Assembly (NCBI GenBank): GCA_947303825.1
Contig: CAMYZK010000001.1
Location: 1 to 28,900 of the forward strand
Direction: 5' to 3'
Source of the DNA: an uncultured Prevotella sp.
Lineage (GTDB): Bacteria; Bacteroidota; Bacteroidia; Bacteroidales; Bacteroidaceae
Length of the DNA: 28,900 nucleotides
The notes beneath the pieces were generated by a model. It had not been told where the DNA came from. It saw only the letters and a list, made by a program, of their open reading frames with translations, and made no database searches. A program made the position numbers and the translations under genes. Numbering within the stretch: the stretch's first letter is position 1; each line of letters starts with the position of its first letter. Shown here piece after piece: positions 1-28,832 of the stretch.

Positions 1-2402
1 GCATTGTTTTAGATGATGGGACAAAAGGCATCGGAGGCAGTGCCTTCTCTGGTTGCAGCGGCCTGACCTCCATCACCATCCCCAACTCTGTGACTAGCAT
101 AGGAAACTGGGCTTTCTATGGTTGCATGAATCTGACCTCCATAACCATCCCTAACACTGTGACTAGCATAGGAGAATATGCGTTCTTTGGCTGTGGCAGC
201 CTGACCTCTGTTACAGTACAGTCAAAAACACCAGTCGTGATTTCTAAAAGTGTATTCTCAAACAGAGCGAACGCCACGCTCTATGTGCCCTCCGGAAGCA
301 AGACGGCATACGAAGCCGCTGATTACTGGAAGGAGTTCAAGGAGATAAAAGAGCCTTTCACCGGCACCGTGACCGATGAGCAGGGTGTAAAGTACACCGC
401 CAATGACGACGAGACCACTTGCTATGTGTTTGGACACGAAGACAATTACAGTGCCACCATCGTCATTCCACAGACATTCCAAGGGAGAACAGTATCTGCC
501 ATTGGAGGCGAAGCCTTCCGGAATTGCTGGAGTCTGACCTCCATCACCATCCCAAGCTCCGTGACTAGCATAGGAAACGGGGCTTTCGAGGGCTGTCGTG
601 GTCTGACCTCCATCACCATCCCCAAATCTGTGACTAGCATAGGAGACGGGGCTTTCGAGGGCTGTCGTGGTCTGACCTCCATCACCATCCCCAACTCTGT
701 GACTAGCATAGGAGACGGGGCTTTCTCAGGCTGCAGCGGCCTGACCTCCATCACCATCCCCAACTCCGTGACTAGCATAGGAGAAGGTGCTTTCTATGGT
801 TGCAGCAGTCTGACCTCCATCACCATCCCTAACTCTGTGACTAGCATAGGAGAATGTGCTTTCTATGGTTGCAGCAGTCTGACCTCCTTCACCATCCCTA
901 ACTCTGTGACTAGCATAGGAGAAGGGGCTTTCGAGGACTGTCGTGGTCTGATCTCCATCACCATCCCCAAATCTGTGACTAGCATAGGAGACGGGGCTTT
1001 CTCAGGCTGCAGCGGCCTGACCTCCATCACCATCCCCAACTCCGTGACCAGCATTGGAAACAATGCTTTTCAGAGTTGCAGTGGCCTGACTTCCATCACC
1101 ATTCCCAGCTCAGTGACTAGCATAGGAATCTGGGCTTTCTTTTACTGTACCAGCCTAACCTCCATTACCATCCCATGCTCCGTGACTAGCTTAGGGAACA
1201 GTGCTTTCAATGGATGTAGCGGTCTGGCATCCATTGTCGTTGAAGCAGGGAATACTGTTTACGACTCTCGGGAGAATTGCAATGCCATTATCAGAACTTC
1301 TGACAATCAGCTTATCACGGGCTGTAAGAATACAGTAATCCCCAACTCCGTGACTAGCATAGGAGAAGCTGCTTTCCAGAATTGCAGCGGCTTGACCTCC
1401 ATCACCATCCCCAGCTCCGTGACTAGCATAGGAGGCCTTGCTTTCATTGGCTGCAGCGGCCTGACCTCCATCACCATCCCCAACTCTGTGACTAGCATTG
1501 GAAACAATGCTTTTCAGAGCTGCAGTGGCCTGACCTCCATCACTATCCCCAGTTCCGTGACTAGCATAGGAGAATATGCTTTCTATGGCTGCAACAGCTT
1601 GACCTCTGTTACAGTACAGTCAAAAACTCCTGTGACGATTCAGTCACATGTGTTCTCAAACAGAGAAAATGTTACTCTCTATGTGCCCTATGGAAGCAAA
1701 GCGGCATACGCGGCTGCCGACTACTGGAAGGATTTCAAGGAGATTGTGGAGTTGCCTGCACCCACCCCATCTAGCAGTCTCTATGCAGAAGAAACATCTC
1801 TGCGTACTGGCTCACAGGCTGTTATTCCCGTTATCTTTGAGAATGAAAAGGCCTATGGTGGGTTGCAGTGTGAGGTGACGCTGCCTGCAGGCATCACGCT
1901 GAGCAAGGTGACGAAGACGGACAGGCTGAGCGACGACTTTGTCCTTCAGAAGAGCAAGATAGGTGACAACACCTACCAGATTCTGCTGTACAACACAAGC
2001 CGCCTGTCATTCACGGGCAATGACGGTGCATTGTTCACGATGACGGTCGACGTTGCCGACAATATGGCGGTTGGCGATTATACAATGACGCTCAGCGATA
2101 TCGTTGCCACAGATGTTGATGAGAACCAGGAGGACTTGGCCGACGTTAGCGTGCCCCTCCATGTGGAGAAATACCTTGTTGGTGATGCTAATCGCGATAA
2201 CCGCGTTAATGTGACCGACATCATGGCTGTGGCCAACTATATCCTGAAAATTGCAAGCAGCAACTTCAACGAAAAGGCTGCCGACGTAAACAACGACAAC
2301 CGCATAAACGTCACCGATATCATGGGCATTGCCAACATCATCCTGAAGGTGAACACAACACAGAATGCACCAGCAAGGAAGCAGGTGCTTGATCCGCAAT
2401 AA
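1..2402 (+). CDS. BspA-like leucine-rich repeat surface protein with cohesin-like and dockerin domains (5' partial)
   Basis: The frame is open at the left edge, so the true start and signal peptide lie outside the window; an internal GTG at 90 is not the start. The product is built from 23-residue LRR_5 (BspA/Treponema type) units, TSITIPxSVTSIGxxAFxxC. One block covers about 3-210. A second covers about 520-1620, with ten contiguous full units, then a degenerate spacer, then further units. Each block ends in a similar QSKTPV...LYVP...DYWK.FKEI segment. A cohesin-like beta domain follows (about 1780-2170). The protein ends in two dockerin type I-like calcium loops: DANRDNRVNVTD from about 2184 and DVNNDNRINVTD from about 2281. 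BspA proteins are surface adhesins that bind host or bacterial ligands. The role here is inferred. The next gene starts 30 nt downstream, so they are probably co-transcribed. Confidence 0.88.
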   Translation, partial: IVLDDGTKGIGGSAFSGCSGLTSITIPNSVTSIGNWAFYGCMNLTSITIPNTVTSIGEYAFFGCGSLTSVTVQSKTPVVISKSVFSNRANATLYVPSGSKTAYEAADYWKEFKEIKEPFTGTVTDEQGVKYTANDDETTCYVFGHEDNYSATIVIPQTFQGRTVSAIGGEAFRNCWSLTSITIPSSVTSIGNGAFEGCRGLTSITIPKSVTSIGDGAFEGCRGLTSITIPNSVTSIGDGAFSGCSGLTSITIPNSVTSIGEGAFYGCSSLTSITIPNSVTSIGECAFYGCSSLTSFTIPNSVTSIGEGAFEDCRGLISITIPKSVTSIGDGAFSGCSGLTSITIPNSVTSIGNNAFQSCSGLTSITIPSSVTSIGIWAFFYCTSLTSITIPCSVTSLGNSAFNGCSGLASIVVEAGNTVYDSRENCNAIIRTSDNQLITGCKNTVIPNSVTSIGEAAFQNCSGLTSITIPSSVTSIGGLAFIGCSGLTSITIPNSVTSIGNNAFQSCSGLTSITIPSSVTSIGEYAFYGCNSLTSVTVQSKTPVTIQSHVFSNRENVTLYVPYGSKAAYAAADYWKDFKEIVELPAPTPSSSLYAEETSLRTGSQAVIPVIFENEKAYGGLQCEVTLPAGITLSKVTKTDRLSDDFVLQKSKIGDNTYQILLYNTSRLSFTGNDGALFTMTVDVADNMAVGDYTMTLSDIVATDVDENQEDLADVSVPLHVEKYLVGDANRDNRVNVTDIMAVANYILKIASSNFNEKAADVNNDNRINVTDIMGIANIILKVNTTQNAPARKQVLDPQ
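517..1620 (+). repeat. 69-bp tandem coding repeat array (LRR units)
   Basis: The 23-residue LRR units are also near-identical at nucleotide level. The string TGACTAGCATAGGA recurs at 69-nt spacing, including between the units at 91 and 160. The period is a multiple of three, so unit gain or loss keeps the frame. Confidence 0.85.
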
Positions 2403-2432: not shown

Positions 2433-3626
2433 ATGAAAAAGCTACTATGTGCCTTGATGGCATTAACATCATGGGCTGCATCAGTAAGGGCAGCCGATGG
2501 CATCACTATCGCTGATGCAAACGTTCCGAAAGGAGGAACAGCTGTGGTAGAAGTGCAACTCAACAGCACTGACAAGAGCTATGGAGGATTCCAGTTTGAA
2601 GTGACACTGCCCAAAGGGGTAGCGCTCGTGAAAGTGGAGAAAGCCGCTCGACTGACGGCTATTGAGAACTATACGCTGCAGAAGAACCTGACGGATGCGG
2701 AGAACAACATCTACACCGTTCTTGGCTACAATACTGACAGGCAAAGCATTGCTGGCACGTCAGGAGCGGTAGCCTACCTCACTCTTGAGGCTAGTACGAG
2801 TATGACCATTGGCAATGTTCTCAATGCTTCAGTTAATAATGTAGTACTGAGCACGGTTAATGAGGAGAATATCGATGCTGCCAACTCTTCGTTTACCATC
2901 ACTATTGGTGAGCCTGGCGACAATCGCACCATTCTTGACGAGACATCGACCACGGCTCCTGCTGCCAGCAACGGCGCAGTGGATGTGCGTGTGAAGCGCA
3001 CCATCAAGGGTGGCGAATGGGGCACCATCTGTCTGCCCTTCGCCATGAGCGAGACGCAGGTGAAAGCAGCCTTCGGCAGCGACGTGCAGATAGCCAACTT
3101 CACCAGCTGGAAATCGGAGGAGGACGACGGGGGTGCCATCGTAGGTATCAACGTGGGATTTACCGCTGTCAGCGAAATGGAGGCCAACCATCCTTACATT
3201 ATCAAAACATCGGCAGACATCACTGAGTTCACCGCAGACGGCGTGGACATTGAGGTTGAAGATGAACCGAAGGTGCAGGTAGGCAAGAAATCTTCCGAGC
3301 GCGGCTATATGTATGGCACCTTCAAGGTGATGAAAGTTCCTGAGGAGAATCTGTTCCTCAGTGGTGGTGATTTCTGGTACTCTACTGGGACTACGACAAC
3401 AAAAGCCTTCCGTGGATACTTCGAGTTCCGCGACGTATTAGATGCCTATTATGACCAAAGCAATGCTCGCATCACCATGACGTTCACCGACGAGGCCAGT
3501 GGCGTACAGTTGGTAGAGATATCTGGCAAGCAGGATGACAGCACTTACGACCTGCAGGGCCGCAGGGTGGTGAAACCCGCTGGTGGTCTGTACATCAAGG
3601 GAGGAAAGAAAGTGATTGTGAAATAA
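2433..3626 (+). CDS. Secreted protein with cohesin-like domain and KGLYI-type C-terminal tail
   Basis: 397 aa with a clear Sec signal peptide (MKKLLCALMALTSWAASVRA). Residues about 22-156 form a cohesin-like domain that aligns by eye with the one in the preceding LRR protein: both share YGG.Q.EVTLP.G..L.KV.K..RL, LQK, YNT.R.S..G..GA and a later EN. The middle (about 160-355) is a beta-rich region of a type often seen in Prevotella surface proteins (GEWGTICLPFAMSE...). The C-terminus reads YDLQGRRVVKPAGGLYIKGG followed by a basic end, which resembles a short T9SS type A tail. Spacing of 30 nt from the upstream gene and 19 nt to the next small ORF suggests one operon. Function is unknown; a surface scaffold or partner of the dockerin protein is inferred. 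Confidence 0.85.
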   Translation: MKKLLCALMALTSWAASVRAADGITIADANVPKGGTAVVEVQLNSTDKSYGGFQFEVTLPKGVALVKVEKAARLTAIENYTLQKNLTDAENNIYTVLGYNTDRQSIAGTSGAVAYLTLEASTSMTIGNVLNASVNNVVLSTVNEENIDAANSSFTITIGEPGDNRTILDETSTTAPAASNGAVDVRVKRTIKGGEWGTICLPFAMSETQVKAAFGSDVQIANFTSWKSEEDDGGAIVGINVGFTAVSEMEANHPYIIKTSADITEFTADGVDIEVEDEPKVQVGKKSSERGYMYGTFKVMKVPEENLFLSGGDFWYSTGTTTTKAFRGYFEFRDVLDAYYDQSNARITMTFTDEASGVQLVEISGKQDDSTYDLQGRRVVKPAGGLYIKGGKKVIVK

Positions 3627-3645: not shown

Positions 3646-3831
3646 ATGAAGAAGATATATATTTCGCCTAGGACAGAGGTAACAGCAGTGCAGTCGCAAA
3701 CAATACTCACCGGCTCTGGCGGCGTGTGGTCGCCTGGCGGCATAGGCTACGGCGGTGTGGACACCGGTGGCAGCAAGGAGCCGGGAGCCCGCTACCACAA
3801 CAAGCTGTGGGATGACGAGGAAGACTGGTGA
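3646..3831 (+). CDS. Small 61-aa protein, MKKIY.SP / LWD family
   Basis: The start is supported by AAGGA a few bases upstream, an unusually good Shine-Dalgarno for this phylum. It begins MKKIYISPRTEV, has a glycine-rich middle (about residues 23-43), and ends RYHNKLWDDEEDW. There is no hydrophobic signal peptide. The same layout recurs in the small minus-strand ORF at 27302-27505: identical first five residues, SP, T, Q near residue 18, then R-x(1-2)-K-x-LWD and acidic residues. Both sit immediately downstream of a gene with the KGLYI tail. I do not recognise a function. A peptide precursor, a modified leader/core peptide, or a chaperone for the surface protein are possibilities only. Confidence 0.7.
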   Translation: MKKIYISPRTEVTAVQSQTILTGSGGVWSPGGIGYGGVDTGGSKEPGARYHNKLWDDEEDW

Positions 3832-5835: not shown

Positions 5836-6050
5836 TGAGCCCACTTTAAAAAAGTCTAGAAATGAGTATTCCGAGAAGAAATCTGTGCGCAGCCGCTCCC
5901 CGCCCCTTAAGGGGAGGGGTCGGGGGTGGGGTAGGTATCTCTCTGCCGCTGAATGAGTTAGTCACCCCACTCCCTGCCCCTCCTCTACAAGGGAGGGGAG
6001 TGCCATGCGGCTCGTTAGTTGACGGTAGCGGACATTTTAAAGTAGACTCA
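5836..6050. mobile_element. MITE-like element in the subtilase leader
   Basis: A 16-bp terminal inverted repeat with two mismatches, TGAGCCCACTTTAAAA (5836-5851) and TTTTAAAGTAGACTCA (6035-6050), encloses 215 bp. ATCA directly precedes the left end and directly follows the right end, a possible target duplication. Inside are very GC-rich palindromic arms: CCCCTTAAGGGG near 5904, and an imperfect inverted pair of about 22 bp (around 5909-5933 with 5961-5985). No protein is encoded by it. The subtilase reading frame happens to be open across it, which makes a spurious N-terminal extension from 5862. Confidence 0.6.
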
Positions 6051-6119
6051 ATCATGCCTGTAATAATATGTAATGAAAGTAGAGCAAGCCGACAGCTGTC
6101 GGCTACAGTAAGAGCGACA

Positions 6120-8315
6120 ATGGCCATAAGCGTTGCCCGGTTTGCCCTGGTGCTGCTGGCCCTGGTGCTGCCGGTGCTCACGCTGCATGCGCAGCGTACG
6201 CGTCTGGACAAGCTGTCACCCATGCTGCGCAACATGGCCCGTCAGGAGGCGGCTGCCAGCCGGGGCACAATGGCGGCACGCCCCACTGCCGTATGCGCCT
6301 TTGTCAAGGTGGCAAAAGACGGCGAGAAGGCACTAGGCGACAACGGCTGCAGGGTGTTGGCACAGGTGGGCGACATCTGCATTGCCCACATTCCGACGAG
6401 CCGACTGGCCCCCCTCTCGAGAGACAGCCGCATAAAGCGGATAGAGGCCAACAGGGGCAGCCGTCCGCAGACCGACTCGCTGGCATGGTATCTCAACGCA
6501 CTGCCAGTATACCAGGGGCTCAACGCTCCGCAGGCTTATACCGGAAAGGGTGTCGTGGTGGGGGTGATGGACATTGGCTTCGACCTCACCCATCCCAACT
6601 TCTACAGCTGCGACACTGCCGAATACCGCATCAAGCGGTTCTGGGACATGCTCTCTGCCGACACCGTGGGCAGCACTCTGTATGTGGGGCGCGACTATGG
6701 CGGGCGCGACGAGCTGCTGGCTGTGGCACATGCCAGAGACGGCCTCGACCAGACACACGGCACCCACACCCTGGGCATTGCCGCAGGCAGCGGGTACGAC
6801 TCTCCCTACAGGGGGATGGCTCCCGAGAGCGACATCTGCCTGGTGGCCAACGCCGTGAGTGAAGACATTGCGCTTATCGACTCGGCCGACTACAATAAAT
6901 ATACGTATGCCACCGACGCACTGGGCTTCAAGTATATCTTCGACTATGCAGAGAGCCGTGGCATGCCGTGCGTGATAAACTTCAGCGAGGGCAGCAGCCA
7001 GGACTTCTGGGGCTACGACCAGCTCTACTACGAGCTGCTGGAGCGTATCACCGGTCCTGGACGCATCATCGTGTCGTCGGCAGGCAACCACGGCTACGAC
7101 AAGACGTGGATACACAAAGCAGCGGGTGAGTCGAGGGCAGGCTCCTTCGTCAGTTCCAGCAGCCCGTTGGGAATGCTTACCGTCAAGGCCGACAGAGACT
7201 TCATGCTGCGACTGGTGGCCTATGGAGAAACAGCCAACGACACCCTGCTGGTAAACTCACGCAGCGTGGTAGAGCAGGAAGACTCGGTGCTCAACGATTT
7301 TGTCTATGCCCATATCGACACGGTACATGTGAGCATTGAAGCCTACCCCTCCTGCTATGTGCCCACCGAGACCTGCTACGACATCACGTTTGAAGGCAAG
7401 CGCACGCTGGGTGTCAAGCAGCCCCTGTCGGTAGAGGTAATAGGCCAGGAGGCCGACATAGAGGTATACAGGGTGTCGGGAAAGCTGGTAGAGAACGCCC
7501 TCAACCCGCAGCTCAACGACGGCGAGCTGACCCACACCGTCATGTCGCCCGCCACGGCTCCCTGTGTCATCTGCGTGGGGGCCACCTTCTACCGACCCGG
7601 CATTGTCAACTATCTGGGACAATGGAAGGAGGCCAGCAAGGGACCATACGGCGAGAGGCAGGTCAACTCGTCCATCGGCCCTACTATGGACGGGCGCATC
7701 AAGCCCGACGTCATGGCACCAGGCATGAACATCATCTCATCGTACAGCAGCTATTACCTGGAGAACCATCCCGATGCCAACGATATAAAGTGGGACGTGG
7801 AGCATTTCAGCTTCAACGGACGCACATACGCCTGGAACACCAACAGCGGCACGTCGATGTCATCGCCAGCCGTGGCAGGGGCCATCGCCCTGTGGCTACA
7901 GGCCAAGCCCGACCTTACCAAAGAGCAGATACTGGACATCTTCAGCCACACCTGCCGACACTATGACGAGACAATGACGTTTCCCAACAACTACTACGGC
8001 TATGGCGAGATAGACGTCTACAGCGGCTTGCTCTATCTGCTGGGCACAAGTGGCATACAGGGGGTGTCGGCCAGCAAGACCACGGCACGCATCAGCACCA
8101 GTGAGGGGAGAATGACAATAGACTTCGGCAGACCCGTCGCAGAGCCTGTCGTCATACGCCTGCTATCGCTGTCGGGCCGTCAGGTCATGTCGGAAAAGAT
8201 TACTACTGGACTTTCAGCTTACACCATGACACTGCCCCACCTTGCAAAAGGCGTATATCTGGTGCAGATTGATGGACCGACAAGTATCTGCGGTTCAATG
8301 CTGGTTCGACTCTGA
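6120..8315 (+). CDS. S8 family (subtilisin-like) serine peptidase with T9SS C-terminal sorting domain
   Basis: Start chosen at ATG 6120, giving 731 aa and a classic signal peptide (MAISVARFALVLLALVLPVLTLHAQ). The in-frame ATG at 5862 would add 86 residues encoded by a MITE-like repeat. Subtilase triad: Asp151 in VMDIGFD, His213 in THGTHTLG, Ser579 in SGTSMSSP; the oxyanion Asn lies in SSAGNHG. The His-Ser interval is much longer than in a minimal subtilisin, consistent with a beta-rich insertion (about 340-500). The last ~75 residues (LSLSGRQV ... LPHLAKGVYLVQI ... MLVRL) look like a T9SS type A sorting tail, so the product is predicted to be exported and surface-anchored or released. It probably degrades extracellular protein. 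It stands alone on its strand. Confidence 0.9.
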   Translation: MAISVARFALVLLALVLPVLTLHAQRTRLDKLSPMLRNMARQEAAASRGTMAARPTAVCAFVKVAKDGEKALGDNGCRVLAQVGDICIAHIPTSRLAPLSRDSRIKRIEANRGSRPQTDSLAWYLNALPVYQGLNAPQAYTGKGVVVGVMDIGFDLTHPNFYSCDTAEYRIKRFWDMLSADTVGSTLYVGRDYGGRDELLAVAHARDGLDQTHGTHTLGIAAGSGYDSPYRGMAPESDICLVANAVSEDIALIDSADYNKYTYATDALGFKYIFDYAESRGMPCVINFSEGSSQDFWGYDQLYYELLERITGPGRIIVSSAGNHGYDKTWIHKAAGESRAGSFVSSSSPLGMLTVKADRDFMLRLVAYGETANDTLLVNSRSVVEQEDSVLNDFVYAHIDTVHVSIEAYPSCYVPTETCYDITFEGKRTLGVKQPLSVEVIGQEADIEVYRVSGKLVENALNPQLNDGELTHTVMSPATAPCVICVGATFYRPGIVNYLGQWKEASKGPYGERQVNSSIGPTMDGRIKPDVMAPGMNIISSYSSYYLENHPDANDIKWDVEHFSFNGRTYAWNTNSGTSMSSPAVAGAIALWLQAKPDLTKEQILDIFSHTCRHYDETMTFPNNYYGYGEIDVYSGLLYLLGTSGIQGVSASKTTARISTSEGRMTIDFGRPVAEPVVIRLLSLSGRQVMSEKITTGLSAYTMTLPHLAKGVYLVQIDGPTSICGSMLVRL

Positions 8316-10333: not shown

Positions 10334-10369
10334 TGGCCAAATTGCGTAAATATTACTAGACACATAAAA

Positions 10370-10404
10370 GGAGTAATGCCGAAAATCCTACAAAGAGTAG
10401 GCAT
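10370..10404 (+). promoter_or_regulatory. Repeated 35-nt 5' leader element, copy 1
   Basis: Starts GGAGTAATGCCGAAAATCCT and ends AGAGTAGGCAT. It differs from copy 2 (10831-10865) at two bases and sits 23 nt before the ATG, the same as copy 2. Two alternative stems compete for the same GG: ATGCC with GGCAT, and CCTAC with GTAGG. Confidence 0.6.
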
Positions 10405-10817: not shown

Positions 10818-10830
10818 TCTTTAACAGCAA

Positions 10831-10865
10831 GGAGTAATGCCGAAAATCCTGTAAAGAGTAGGCAT
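10831..10865 (+). promoter_or_regulatory. Repeated 35-nt 5' leader element, copy 2
   Basis: Same as copy 1 except CCTAC is CCTGT. Both changed positions could still pair with GTAGG as G-U wobbles, which fits a conserved hairpin. It lies between the two lipoprotein genes and 23 nt before the second ATG. It could encode a short peptide MPKIL ending at TAA. Confidence 0.6.
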
Positions 10866-27301: not shown

Positions 27302-27505
27302 CTAGAACAGAACTTCGTCTTCGTCAAAATCCCACAGCGACTTGCCGTGGCGGCTCAGGTTGCCGCCGGTAATGCTGTTGTCGAGCGGATTAGCATTAGT
27401 TGTATTGAATCCGTTCTCCAGCACTCCGGTGCTGCTGGCAGCAATCATCTTCTGTGTATTCACTTTTACCAGCATCGTGGCCGGTGACTGATATATCTTT
27501 TTCAT
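27302..27505 (-). CDS. Small 67-aa protein, MKKIY.SP / LWD family
   Basis: Start at 27505 (MKKIYQSPATMLVKVNTQ); an ATG two codons upstream is possible. No signal peptide; Asn/Gly/Ser-rich middle; end SRHGKSLWDFDEDEVLF. It shares with the 61-aa ORF at 3646 the start MKKIY.SP.T, Val and Gln at similar positions, a GV....G segment, and the tail R...K.LWD plus acidic residues. It follows, by 66 nt, a gene with the KGLYI tail, and is followed by a strong terminator. Function unknown. Confidence 0.7.
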   Translation of the reverse strand: MKKIYQSPATMLVKVNTQKMIAASSTGVLENGFNTTNANPLDNSITGGNLSRHGKSLWDFDEDEVLF

Positions 27506-27571
27506 AATCATTTCTTTTTTTTATTCTTAGTTGAAACTCGCCGAGGCGATACCTTAATGCTCACCTCATTC

Positions 27572-28525
27572 TTACTTCAAGACCTTCTTGCCATTGATAA
27601 TGTAGAGACCCTTTGTGGCTTTCTCCACGCGCACACCGTTAAGGTTGTAGATGGCACCGGTGTTCTGGGTGGTGTTCACCTCGCTGATACCAGAAGCGGT
27701 GTTGTCTATAGCGATAAATGCACGAGAGGTAGCGATTGAAGCAGGCAGGTAAGCGGTGTGGGCACCTACTTCAAAATTATCGTTATTAGTCTTGTAGAAT
27801 CCGATAGGATGAGTATCATCCTTATAAAGAACGAATGCGCCAGAGCCTACAACAGTTTTTTCAAGCACACCTACGAACTTGTTCTCTGACACATCGTCAG
27901 TGGTGTTTGCAGCAGCTACATCATAGTCTTTAGCAGCACCTTTCAGCAGCACGCCAGTCTCTACAGGAATTCTTGTTATCTCAGTGAACGACACCTTCTC
28001 GCCACTTACCGTTGCAATGTAGGCCGTCAGACCAGTAACACTTGTAAAGTCAAGTGCGATGTCACTGCAGTATGTAGCGTAACCAGCATCGGTGATGGTA
28101 ACAGTACGATGATTTGCGTTATAGTCAGCCTCTTGAGCTGCTGCCAGTTCCTCTGCGGTAGGAGTTCCTAGGCTCTGGATATAAATGAAGTCTACAGCTG
28201 CAGTGTATCCAGTCTGACCAAGAAGAATCTCATTGTCGCTGTTTGCTAAAACAACCTCTGTGTCTGCATCGGTAGCATTGGAATTTCCTGTTGTTGTAGC
28301 CCATATTTCACGGTAGCCAGTATAGAACTTATAGGTTCCACCTGCCGATGTAGGCGAATAGAAGCGGGCAGTCATCTTGTACTTACCCTGTGGCAAGTTA
28401 GTTACAAGGGTATTACCACTTTTAGAATAACCGGCAGCACGCTGCGACGAGCGGGCCTCGGCATTACCGCTATTCACAATGCCCATGTCTGGAATATCCT
28501 CTACCTCAGCTAAGAACACCACCAC
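27572..28525 (-). CDS. 5'-truncated secreted protein with KGLYI-type C-terminal tail
   Basis: The open frame runs from about 28550 with only GTG codons near its upstream end (28525) and no signal peptide, so the N-terminus appears lost. The visible protein starts with a beta-rich region (AARFYSPTS-like; DMGIVNSGNAEARS, NLPQGKYKMTARFYSP), which resembles a carbohydrate-binding-type sandwich. Next is a linker with AEELAAAQ, then a region found in Prevotella surface proteins (TITDAGYATYCSDIALDFTS ... IPVETGVLLKG), then GISEVN and the tail YNLNGVRVEKATKGLYIING with a basic end. Immediately upstream lies an Abi_2 remnant in another frame, overlapping by 20 nt. Probably a decayed or recombined gene. 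Confidence 0.65.
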   Translation of the reverse strand: MVVFLAEVEDIPDMGIVNSGNAEARSSQRAAGYSKSGNTLVTNLPQGKYKMTARFYSPTSAGGTYKFYTGYREIWATTTGNSNATDADTEVVLANSDNEILLGQTGYTAAVDFIYIQSLGTPTAEELAAAQEADYNANHRTVTITDAGYATYCSDIALDFTSVTGLTAYIATVSGEKVSFTEITRIPVETGVLLKGAAKDYDVAAANTTDDVSENKFVGVLEKTVVGSGAFVLYKDDTHPIGFYKTNNDNFEVGAHTAYLPASIATSRAFIAIDNTASGISEVNTTQNTGAIYNLNGVRVEKATKGLYIINGKKVLK

Positions 28526-28832
28526 GGTTCCATAGGCGAGAGTGATGGGCTATGATGTTACGCAACACTGATATAGCTTCCAACCAACTGGACAACTCTT
28601 TTGCTGAATAAAGTCCAAAGTCATTAGCTATTGCAGCACGTTCAGGCAACTGACTCTTCAAGTTTTTGTACATCTTTGAGAGTGTGCCAAAGGTTGCGCT
28701 CTCGAGTATCATCCATGCATCAGGGTTATCACCTGCCATCGACTCCCAATCCCAATTGGAATGCCCAGCAATATACTCCTTGGCAAAAGGTTCCGTACTG
28801 CGGTCAAACTCGTATTTAAATTCCGCAGCACT
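28506..28832 (-). pseudogene. Abi_2-family (AbiD/AbiF-like) abortive infection protein remnant
   Basis: In this frame, open from 28832 to the stop at 28506, the translation reads EFKYEFDRSTEPFAKEY (upstream of the ATG at 28739), then WMILESATFGTLSKMYKNLK and ISVLRNIIAHHSRLWNR. These are the core landmarks of Abi_2 proteins (EFDRS, SFGTLSKLYKNLK, LRN..AHH.RLWNR). An in-frame TAA at 28833-28835 removes the N-terminal part, and the frame ends six codons after LWNR, where family members normally continue. Abi_2 proteins act in phage abortive infection or as toxin-like RNA-binding proteins. This copy is almost certainly non-functional. Confidence 0.75.

Follow-up and report, generated by a model that had tools for sequence, protein, structure and literature searches.

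The closest described counterpart of the genes reported here is the pathway to Linear Polyphosphorylated Peptides (LPP) of Paenibacillus alginolyticus, encoded by lppA-K-B-S-D-N and published in 2026; that report calls LPP restricted to Bacillota and the C-termini of the precursors highly variable (PMC13381572). It also describes phosphorylation of LppA on Ser3, which is Y+18 of its consensus, and abolition of phosphorylation by the S3T substitution (PMC13381572). Y-x-x-P is the motif bound by the RREs of lasso and LPP systems according to two reports (PMC13381572; PMC12710340). The small open reading frames (sORFs) described below resemble LPP both in the precursor (small, with a YxxP leader and a Ser 18-20 residues past the Tyr) and in the gene set that accompanies it, comprising an HprK-like kinase, a discrete PqqD-type RRE, a putative archaeal-type signal peptidase I (SpI)-like protease and, in part of the loci, an MsbA-like exporter and an NTP transferase. 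Paeninodin-type lasso systems have in common with them an RRE with a [Y/W]xxP leader, an HprK-like kinase and an NTP transferase (PMC13381572), while the double-glycine/PCAT RiPPs, found in the same order Bacteroidales, are likewise made from small precursors with an N-terminal leader (PMC10352776).

The window, a stretch of 28,900 nt from an uncultured Prevotella sp., is contig C1 of a source genome of 385 contigs that is 70.7% complete. The first-pass annotation had pointed to two related tiny ORFs, each on the same strand directly behind an exported-protein gene with a KGLYI tail, as a candidate undescribed system. Both were re-found as claimed, with the following neighbours:

90..2402, plus strand: BspA-type LRR protein with a C-terminal dockerin (Pfam LRR_5 E 1.3e-139, Dockerin_1 E 1.2e-11), preceding the cohesin gene
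2433..3626, plus strand: exported partner of sORF 1, 397 aa, with a signal-peptide-like start and a cohesin fold at about residues 20-161
3646..3831, plus strand: sORF 1, predicted peptide precursor, 61 aa, with a predicted leader at about residues 1-23 (Y5-x-x-P8) and conserved Ser24
27302..27505, minus strand: sORF 2, predicted peptide precursor, 67 aa, with Y5-x-x-P8 and Ser24/Ser25
27572..28525, minus strand: tail gene 5' of sORF 2, with a C-terminal β-domain of a second type and a KGLYIINGKKVLK tail

sORF 1 lies 19 nt 3' of a gene with the product end YDLQGRRVVKPAGGLYIKGGKKVIVK and sORF 2 lies 66 nt 3' of one with the product end YNLNGVRVEKATKGLYIINGKKVLK, both upstream products ending Y-x-L-x-G-x-R-V ... 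GLYIxxGKK. The sORFs themselves have acidic ends (WDDEEDW in sORF 1 and LWDFDEDEVLF in sORF 2), and an ATG in frame at 27511 would make sORF 2 two residues longer. The leader/core boundary of sORF 1 would fall at about residue 23/24. In the partner of sORF 1 the C-terminal region consists of a W-x-T-x-x-L-P-F ... FRGYF β-domain followed by the GLYIKGGKKVIVK tail; the rows of its structure search cover mainly residues 18-161, in the cohesin part. The tail gene 5' of sORF 2 (L013) matches β-domain model g2 (E 4.8e-33), and its 5' end, start and signal peptide are missing in the assembly. The C-terminal part of an Abi_2 gene (28506-28739, minus strand; PF07751 E 4.5e-22) fuses into the middle of this gene at about 28520, a junction produced either by rearrangement or by assembly joining close to the end of the contig. 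Elsewhere in the window a subtilase (5862-8315, plus strand) bears a weak T9SS sorting tail (PF18962 E 3.5e-5, under the cut-off), and two DUF805b RNA motifs (RF02914) lie about 460 nt apart at 10368-10403 and 10829-10864 on the plus strand.

A small-protein family behind exported-protein genes

Neither sORF has a match at E≤1 in Pfam or NCBIfam, and single-sequence searches returned four proteins for each. A single 12-row profile (A1), in contrast, gathers 341 proteins at E≤10 among 5.8 billion, which bears out the relationship between the two sORFs and the existence of conserved homologues. The 120 matches listed of the 341 are 48-84 aa long and come from Prevotella or Prevotellaceae wherever the source named an organism; 28 diverse members give the consensus M-K-K-x-Y-I-x-P ... 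S ... G-x-G-Y-G-G-V-D ... P-x-S-R ... W-D-D-x-E-E-D. Within the genus of the window the profile is positive in 37/40 genomes (E≤0.01), with up to 27 places per genome, and in the wider bacterial family it is positive in 51/101 genomes and 19/30 genera (E≤0.001), most of the surveyed genomes being drafts and absence in other groups meaning little because the profile is biased toward Prevotella. Close sORF pairs are under purifying selection: 22 pairs were measured, two of them redundant (L153 duplicates L152), and dN/dS is 0.08-0.42 in 18 of the remaining 20, the exceptions being L072/L073 (1.71 at dS 0.029) and L083/L091 (0.70 at dS 0.073). None of the three outcomes that the first-pass annotation had named as telling against its proposal (no conserved homologues, no linkage in other genomes, dN/dS near 1) came about. 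These sequence comparisons confirm that both sORFs belong to a genuine family of small proteins, under selection in Prevotella-like Bacteroidales, that carries no Pfam or NCBIfam name. Regulatory or chance frames behind exported genes, with no peptide function, would fit the shortness of the sORFs and their want of a family name; the dN/dS values, which rule out chance ORFs, and the recurrence of the same protein family across 19 genera make such frames extremely improbable.

The linkage to exported proteins recurs from genome to genome when it is followed from the sORF. The pattern M-K-K-x-Y-x-x-P has seven matches in the source genome, one being a 12-aa ORF and the other six real ORFs that all lie behind a tail gene (gaps of 16-83 nt). 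There are 11 profile matches in this genome (E≤0.01), nine of them listed, and all nine of those follow a tail gene, two with the variant tails KGLYIRGHKK and KGLYLKGNRK. Across the genus we assembled 69 loci, comprising the best place in each of 29 genomes (source genome excluded) and the next 40 of more than 150 listed places, with the best match retained per locus. A frame of more than 80 codons ends within 300 nt upstream of the sORF in 66/69, the tail pattern matches in 55 (median gap of these 20 nt), and seven further loci show variant tails by eye (L047, L072, L073, L081, L085, L097, L104). The upstream frame lacks a tail in L060, L063 and L064, which were excluded from later sORF counts for this reason, and is ambiguous by eye in L098; L048, L057 and L103 have no frame of more than 80 codons ending within 300 nt upstream. 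In five chosen whole genomes a tail match lies within 300 nt upstream on the same strand for at least 41 of 65 sORFs (E≤0.01), a lower bound because 150 of 370 tail matches were listed, and for at least 6 of 21 weaker sORFs (E 0.01-1). Among those 150 tail matches none lies downstream (0/86; 0/65 at E≤0.01) and none on the opposite strand (0/86; likewise 0/65), and the binomial P per genome ranges from 6e-3 (G103, with 3 ORFs) to 2e-26. The wider family shows the same arrangement by eye in 23/29 loci (L105-L133), whereas in L111, L116, L117, L118, L120 and L131 it is absent by eye or there is no room. Programmed frameshift extension of the cargo is ruled out, since sORF and cargo are separated by anything between -4 and 233 nt. 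Family sORFs are also preceded, in L072, L073, L047 and L123, by a second tail type recognised by eye (K-N-G-x-Y/F ... NG-K ... KNG ... A-x-G-Q).

Seen from the exported partner, the proposed link to the KGLYI tail holds in part: the linkage recurs elsewhere, but the tail alone is no predictor. By eye, a sORF stands behind 8 of the 24 matched tail genes of the source genome, and the 16 without one rule out the tail as sole determinant. It is the C-terminal β-domain, not the tail alone, that marks the partner in the source genome. HMMs of this domain, built from residues -240 to -40 of linked proteins and trained on other genomes, score 8/8 linked tail genes (E≤2e-7, better model) and only 1/16 unlinked ones (L018, E 3e-13; next unlinked E 0.02). 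When named genomes were scanned with these HMMs, a family sORF (profile E≤7e-4) followed directly after the β-domain gene in 75 of the best 80 of 131 confirmed stretches, at gaps of -4 to 175 nt, which establishes linkage well beyond the source genome. The β-domain genes with no following sORF are L158 and L212 (identical in tail sequence), L189, L201 and L163 (15 nt of contig left). The scanned stretches come from MAG or assembly records of Prevotella, Prevotellaceae, Bacteroidaceae and Bacteroidales and from one Bacteroides-named source, and many of the β-domain records bear rumen names.

The tails resemble the T9SS type A sorting domain (TIGR04183/PF18962) in the pattern Y-x-L-x-G-x-x-V ... 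G-x-Y-I ... K-V, in their position on exported proteins and in being found mostly in SprA-bearing genomes, but differ in that TIGR04183 reaches E≤0.1 in only 3/66 upstream proteins (best E 0.006, a weak match). SprA is present in the source genome (C26:180-7748, 2612 bits). A dockerin-like motif pair also lies upstream of the cohesin gene in 36/73 loci (among L136-L215), suggesting that rumen Prevotella possess a cohesin/dockerin surface module of T9SS type.

Type III secretion chaperones bind their effectors before export, and by analogy the sORF product could serve the exported protein, without being modified, as its dedicated partner or chaperone: it would be small, acidic and cytosolic and would attach to the C-terminal β-domain or the basic tail ahead of export. 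The near-obligate adjacency (75/80) and the tie to one C-terminal domain (8/8 versus 1/16) both fit this reading, as does charge: among the 140 linked sORFs that were aligned (75 from the β-domain scan, 63 from the genus loci and the 2 of the window) 89% have a pI below 5, while the tail is basic. The conserved sORF ends would moreover suggest a conserved binding partner. However, the C-terminal part of the sORF shows no clear co-divergence with the neighbouring domain (Mantel r 0.085, with 26/300 permutations as high; L183 and L202, with a short upstream gene, and the duplicate L153 excluded), which speaks against lock-and-key partnership and would fit a generic role as adaptor, tether or mark. 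The structural model of the sORF is of low confidence past the leader (pLDDT about 80 for residues 1-20 and 48-57 beyond). A chaperone would also leave unexplained the invariant YxxP, the position that is Ser and not Thr, and the YxxP ORFs at RRE loci of genomes without a SprA match (see below). We therefore regard an unmodified chaperone as unlikely; the dedicated partner of the first-pass annotation survives as gene linkage and loses ground on co-divergence.

A leader motif and a conserved serine

All 140 linked sORFs carry Y-x-x-P within the first 26 residues (139 within the first 14), a count that is partly by construction, as Y, P and, for the most part, S are conserved columns of the profile that yielded the set. 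A Ser is found at Y+17 to Y+21 in 138/140, and Y+19 is Ser in 100 and Thr in 1. The residues leading up to it are mostly Leu/Ile/Met at Y+15 and Y+16 and mostly Gly/Ala/Val/Thr/Ser at Y+18. Hydropathy reveals no clear case of a Sec signal among the 140 (maximum 15-residue value above 1.8 in 3/140). A double-glycine leader is ruled out because Y+17/18 is not GG (Gly at Y+18 in 41/140), and the sORFs differ from the double-glycine/PCAT RiPPs in lacking this site and in protease type (PMC10352776). The aligned leaders also show no HQ or FET columns of the LPP leader consensus YxxPxVLxHQxIxFETxxS.

Kinase, protease and RRE genes in the same genomes

An HprK-like kinase is encoded in 78/101 family genomes, including the source genome (C114:23-916), and a PqqD match (PF05402) is found in 90/101, of which at least four weak matches are other proteins. 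At 14 chosen PqqD loci the kinase (~300 aa), a signal-peptidase-type protease (~150-190 aa) and the RRE (mostly ~90 aa) are adjacent in 13; in the 14th, that of the source genome, contig ends interrupt the locus, C279 carrying protease and RRE and C114 the kinase. An RRE HMM (R) matches all 14. In a second set of 18 loci the protease stands with kinase and RRE in 8, and 3 more have kinase and RRE without the protease. PqqD matches L270, L271, L280 and L281 were rejected as other proteins, lacking K, S and N matches (L271 has a weak R match).

The kinase motifs SGTGKST and NDD-x-P are invariant in 14 aligned rows, and the kinase profile finds only ABC transporter chains and PEPCK among solved structures (E 0.001 to 0.1). 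The protease matches are weak (Peptidase_S24 at E 0.1 to 5e-5; the archaeal-type signal peptidase I model TIGR02228 at 3e-6 and 3e-7, under the cut-off), but in 7/10 sequences where the pattern found both residues the Ser-His spacing is 38-41, compared with 39 in LppS. The Asp of its GD motif lies 15-16 residues past the His, as opposed to 25 for LppS D93. The RRE has an Asp73, invariant in 9 rows, that was compared by position with LppB D70; it matches the NCBIfam lasso PqqD model under the cut-off (3.8e-7) and solved structures weakly (TfuB1 6jx3, E 0.013; 'PqqD family protein' 9x8z, E 0.18). The set resembles the HPr-rel-A system (TIGR04352/TIGR04353) in pairing an HprK-related kinase with a PqqD-family peptide chaperone, but both matches are weak and far below the cut-offs (TIGR04352, HprK_rel_A, 2e-5; TIGR04353, 6e-3). 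An MsbA-like exporter and an NTP transferase both occur in L279 and in L277, and stand beside the core genes in only part of the loci: in ten loci from SprA-positive genomes (G069 set aside) the core genes are flanked by the NTP transferase in 0/10 and by an ABC transporter in 2/10 (L233, L237). Visual inspection of L231, L232, L234, L235 and L236 shows a sigma-70-like gene close to the kinase/protease/RRE locus and, in several of them, also a gene for a small exported protein that bears a V-Y-M-F-G-F-type motif.

Some enzyme loci have a candidate precursor of their own. A plausible YxxP ORF lies within the fetched stretch in 7 of 13 kinase/RRE loci from genomes without a SprA match (L274, L275, L276, L277, L278, L279, L284), some kilobases off in L275, L276 and L284; the YxxP pattern also gives antisense and GC-rich frames in many loci, and these were removed by eye. 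In L277 and L278 the gene row reads 38-aa YxxP ORF, ~1,100-aa protein, RRE, NTP transferase, ABC transporter, kinase and protease. The two encode one identical YxxP peptide in genomes without a SprA match; in L277 the ~1,100-aa protein has a lipoprotein-like start and no Pfam match, and the transporter matches ABC_tran (E 4e-33). L279 carries the complete enzyme set with a YxxP ORF 16 nt behind the exporter. The G069 stretches L272 and L273 have one YxxP ORF each, that of L272 directly behind an exported-protein gene. All eight YxxP ORFs at or near enzyme loci that were compared (L272, L273, L274, L275, L276, L277, L279, L284) have a Ser at Y+19 or Y+20. Three of these (L272, L273, L275) also match the profile and the genome of L276 has one profile match, leaving a profile-independent check of 4/4 in L274, L277, L279 and L284, whose genomes have no profile match at all. 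Conversely, pattern matches judged by eye yielded no such precursor at any of the ten loci with kinase, protease and RRE from SprA-positive genomes (L227, L229-L237; G069 set aside), so that in those genomes the connection between sORFs and enzymes is drawn from motif and co-occurrence. The YxxP ORF of L274 is 148 aa long and starts MKKIYEKP; it adjoins a gene of the radical SAM type (L274:7586-9163; PF04055 E 1e-21), lies near the kinase/protease/RRE genes and is possibly a second precursor type.

Across genomes the kinase accompanies the sORFs in 48/51 sORF-positive and 30/50 sORF-negative genomes (Fisher 3.3e-5), SprA in 46/51 and 23/50 (Fisher 1.3e-6) and PqqD in 49/51 and 41/50 (Fisher 0.024), with ancestry not accounted for in any of the three tests. 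sORFs are present in 43/61 genomes with both kinase and SprA, 5/17 with the kinase only, 3/8 with SprA only and 0/15 with neither; by genus, in 19/24 with the kinase versus 0/6 without it (0.0008, again with ancestry not accounted for). SprA is at least equal to the kinase as a predictor of sORFs, in line with their pairing to exported proteins. Among sORF-positive genomes no kinase match was found in G083, G106 and G139 (drafts, 87-94% complete) and no SprA match in G045, G049, G052, G073 and G075. The presence of the kinase in 30 sORF-negative genomes, and the confounding of co-occurrence by ancestry, count against an LPP-type reading. Together with the RRE-type leader motif and the conserved serine, the kinase and PqqD frequencies in sORF-positive genomes nevertheless favour the peptide-precursor half of the first-pass proposal.

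Because YxxP is also a lasso leader motif, lasso-peptide precursors are an alternative. Lasso-type loci do occur in the same bacterial family (L282 and L283, with PqqD and Transglut_core3, and Asn_synthase at E 6e-19 in L282), and they carry W-x-x-P ORFs, matching the W/Y split given in the LPP report (PMC13381572). The B2 protease PF13471, however, is above the cut-off in only 2/101 family genomes (G044 and G071, neither with a profile match; four more are below the cut-off). This rarity sets the sORFs apart from paeninodin-type systems and led us to reject lasso peptides, to which we give next to no credence.

Proposed processing in trans of scattered precursors

The reading that we favour, and consider fairly probable, is that the sORFs are precursors of a ribosomally made, modified LPP-type peptide, dispersed along the genome behind cargo genes of T9SS type, with their processing taking place in trans. 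In this mechanism the sORF would be co-transcribed behind an exported cohesin/adhesin gene, and a stand-alone PqqD-type RRE would bind its leader via Y5-x-x-P8. The HprK-like kinase would then phosphorylate the conserved Ser24, and the archaeal-type signal-peptidase-like protease, with the leader presented by the RRE, would cut behind a small residue at about position 23/24. Some of the genomes also have an MsbA-like ABC exporter and an NTP transferase, which may export the peptide and modify it further. Finally, and most conjecturally, the released acidic peptide of ~38 residues might act at the cell surface with the neighbouring T9SS-type cohesin protein; the pairing of each sORF with an exported-protein gene suggests that the finished peptide belongs with that protein. 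In the lineage of the window the enzymes would serve, in trans, a large number of dispersed precursors; in T9SS lineages the precursors have presumably grown in number and come to lie behind cargo genes that share one type of C-terminus.

The same motif and serine evidence would also suit a substrate of RRE and kinase that is neither cut nor exported, a phospho-adaptor or regulator reporting on the production or export of the neighbouring cargo, and the scarcity of ABC transporters beside the core genes (2/10 loci in SprA-positive genomes outside G069) is in keeping with it. The SpI-like protease, however, stands with kinase and RRE in 13/14 chosen loci and 8/18 of the second set, which points to cleavage, and we judge an uncut phospho-adaptor quite improbable. 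A more specific form of the precursor reading, which we consider less likely than not, has one kinase/protease/RRE locus processing as many as tens of precursors. Each would be produced along with a single cohesin or adhesin exported by T9SS, and the finished phosphopeptide would be the adaptor by which that protein is fastened or licensed at the surface (a three-gene surface module of dockerin protein, cohesin protein and peptide).

Although the system is LPP-like, we would not call it a member of LPP on present sequence evidence, because its leaders depart from the LPP consensus and, in the lineage of the window, its precursor genes are not part of the cluster; the Asp spacing of the protease is also off. 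Relative to LPP as published, the sORF hosts are Bacteroidota, the precursors are dispersed behind genes for exported proteins, with as many as 27 profile matches in one genome, the leaders lack the HQ..FET consensus, the C-terminus is conserved and acidic/Trp, and the NTP transferase and exporter are not always beside the core genes. We recognised no prior description of such a system in Bacteroidota or with T9SS in the open-licence literature, bioRxiv preprints and most subscription journals lying outside that scope. The earlier suggestion of an undescribed system is thus upheld by that literature and qualified by the enzyme set, which is the LPP set published in 2026 for Bacillota.

The sORFs are a likely substrate set for the kinase/protease/RRE locus, whose kinase is found in 78 of 101 family genomes and whose job we did not find described in the open-licence literature. 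Short precursors and a small number of enzymes put direct tests of leader binding, cleavage and phosphorylation within reach. If the favoured reading is true, a RiPP logic published only for Bacillota would extend to major gut and rumen bacteria and would be tied there to T9SS-type surface display and cohesin/dockerin complexes.
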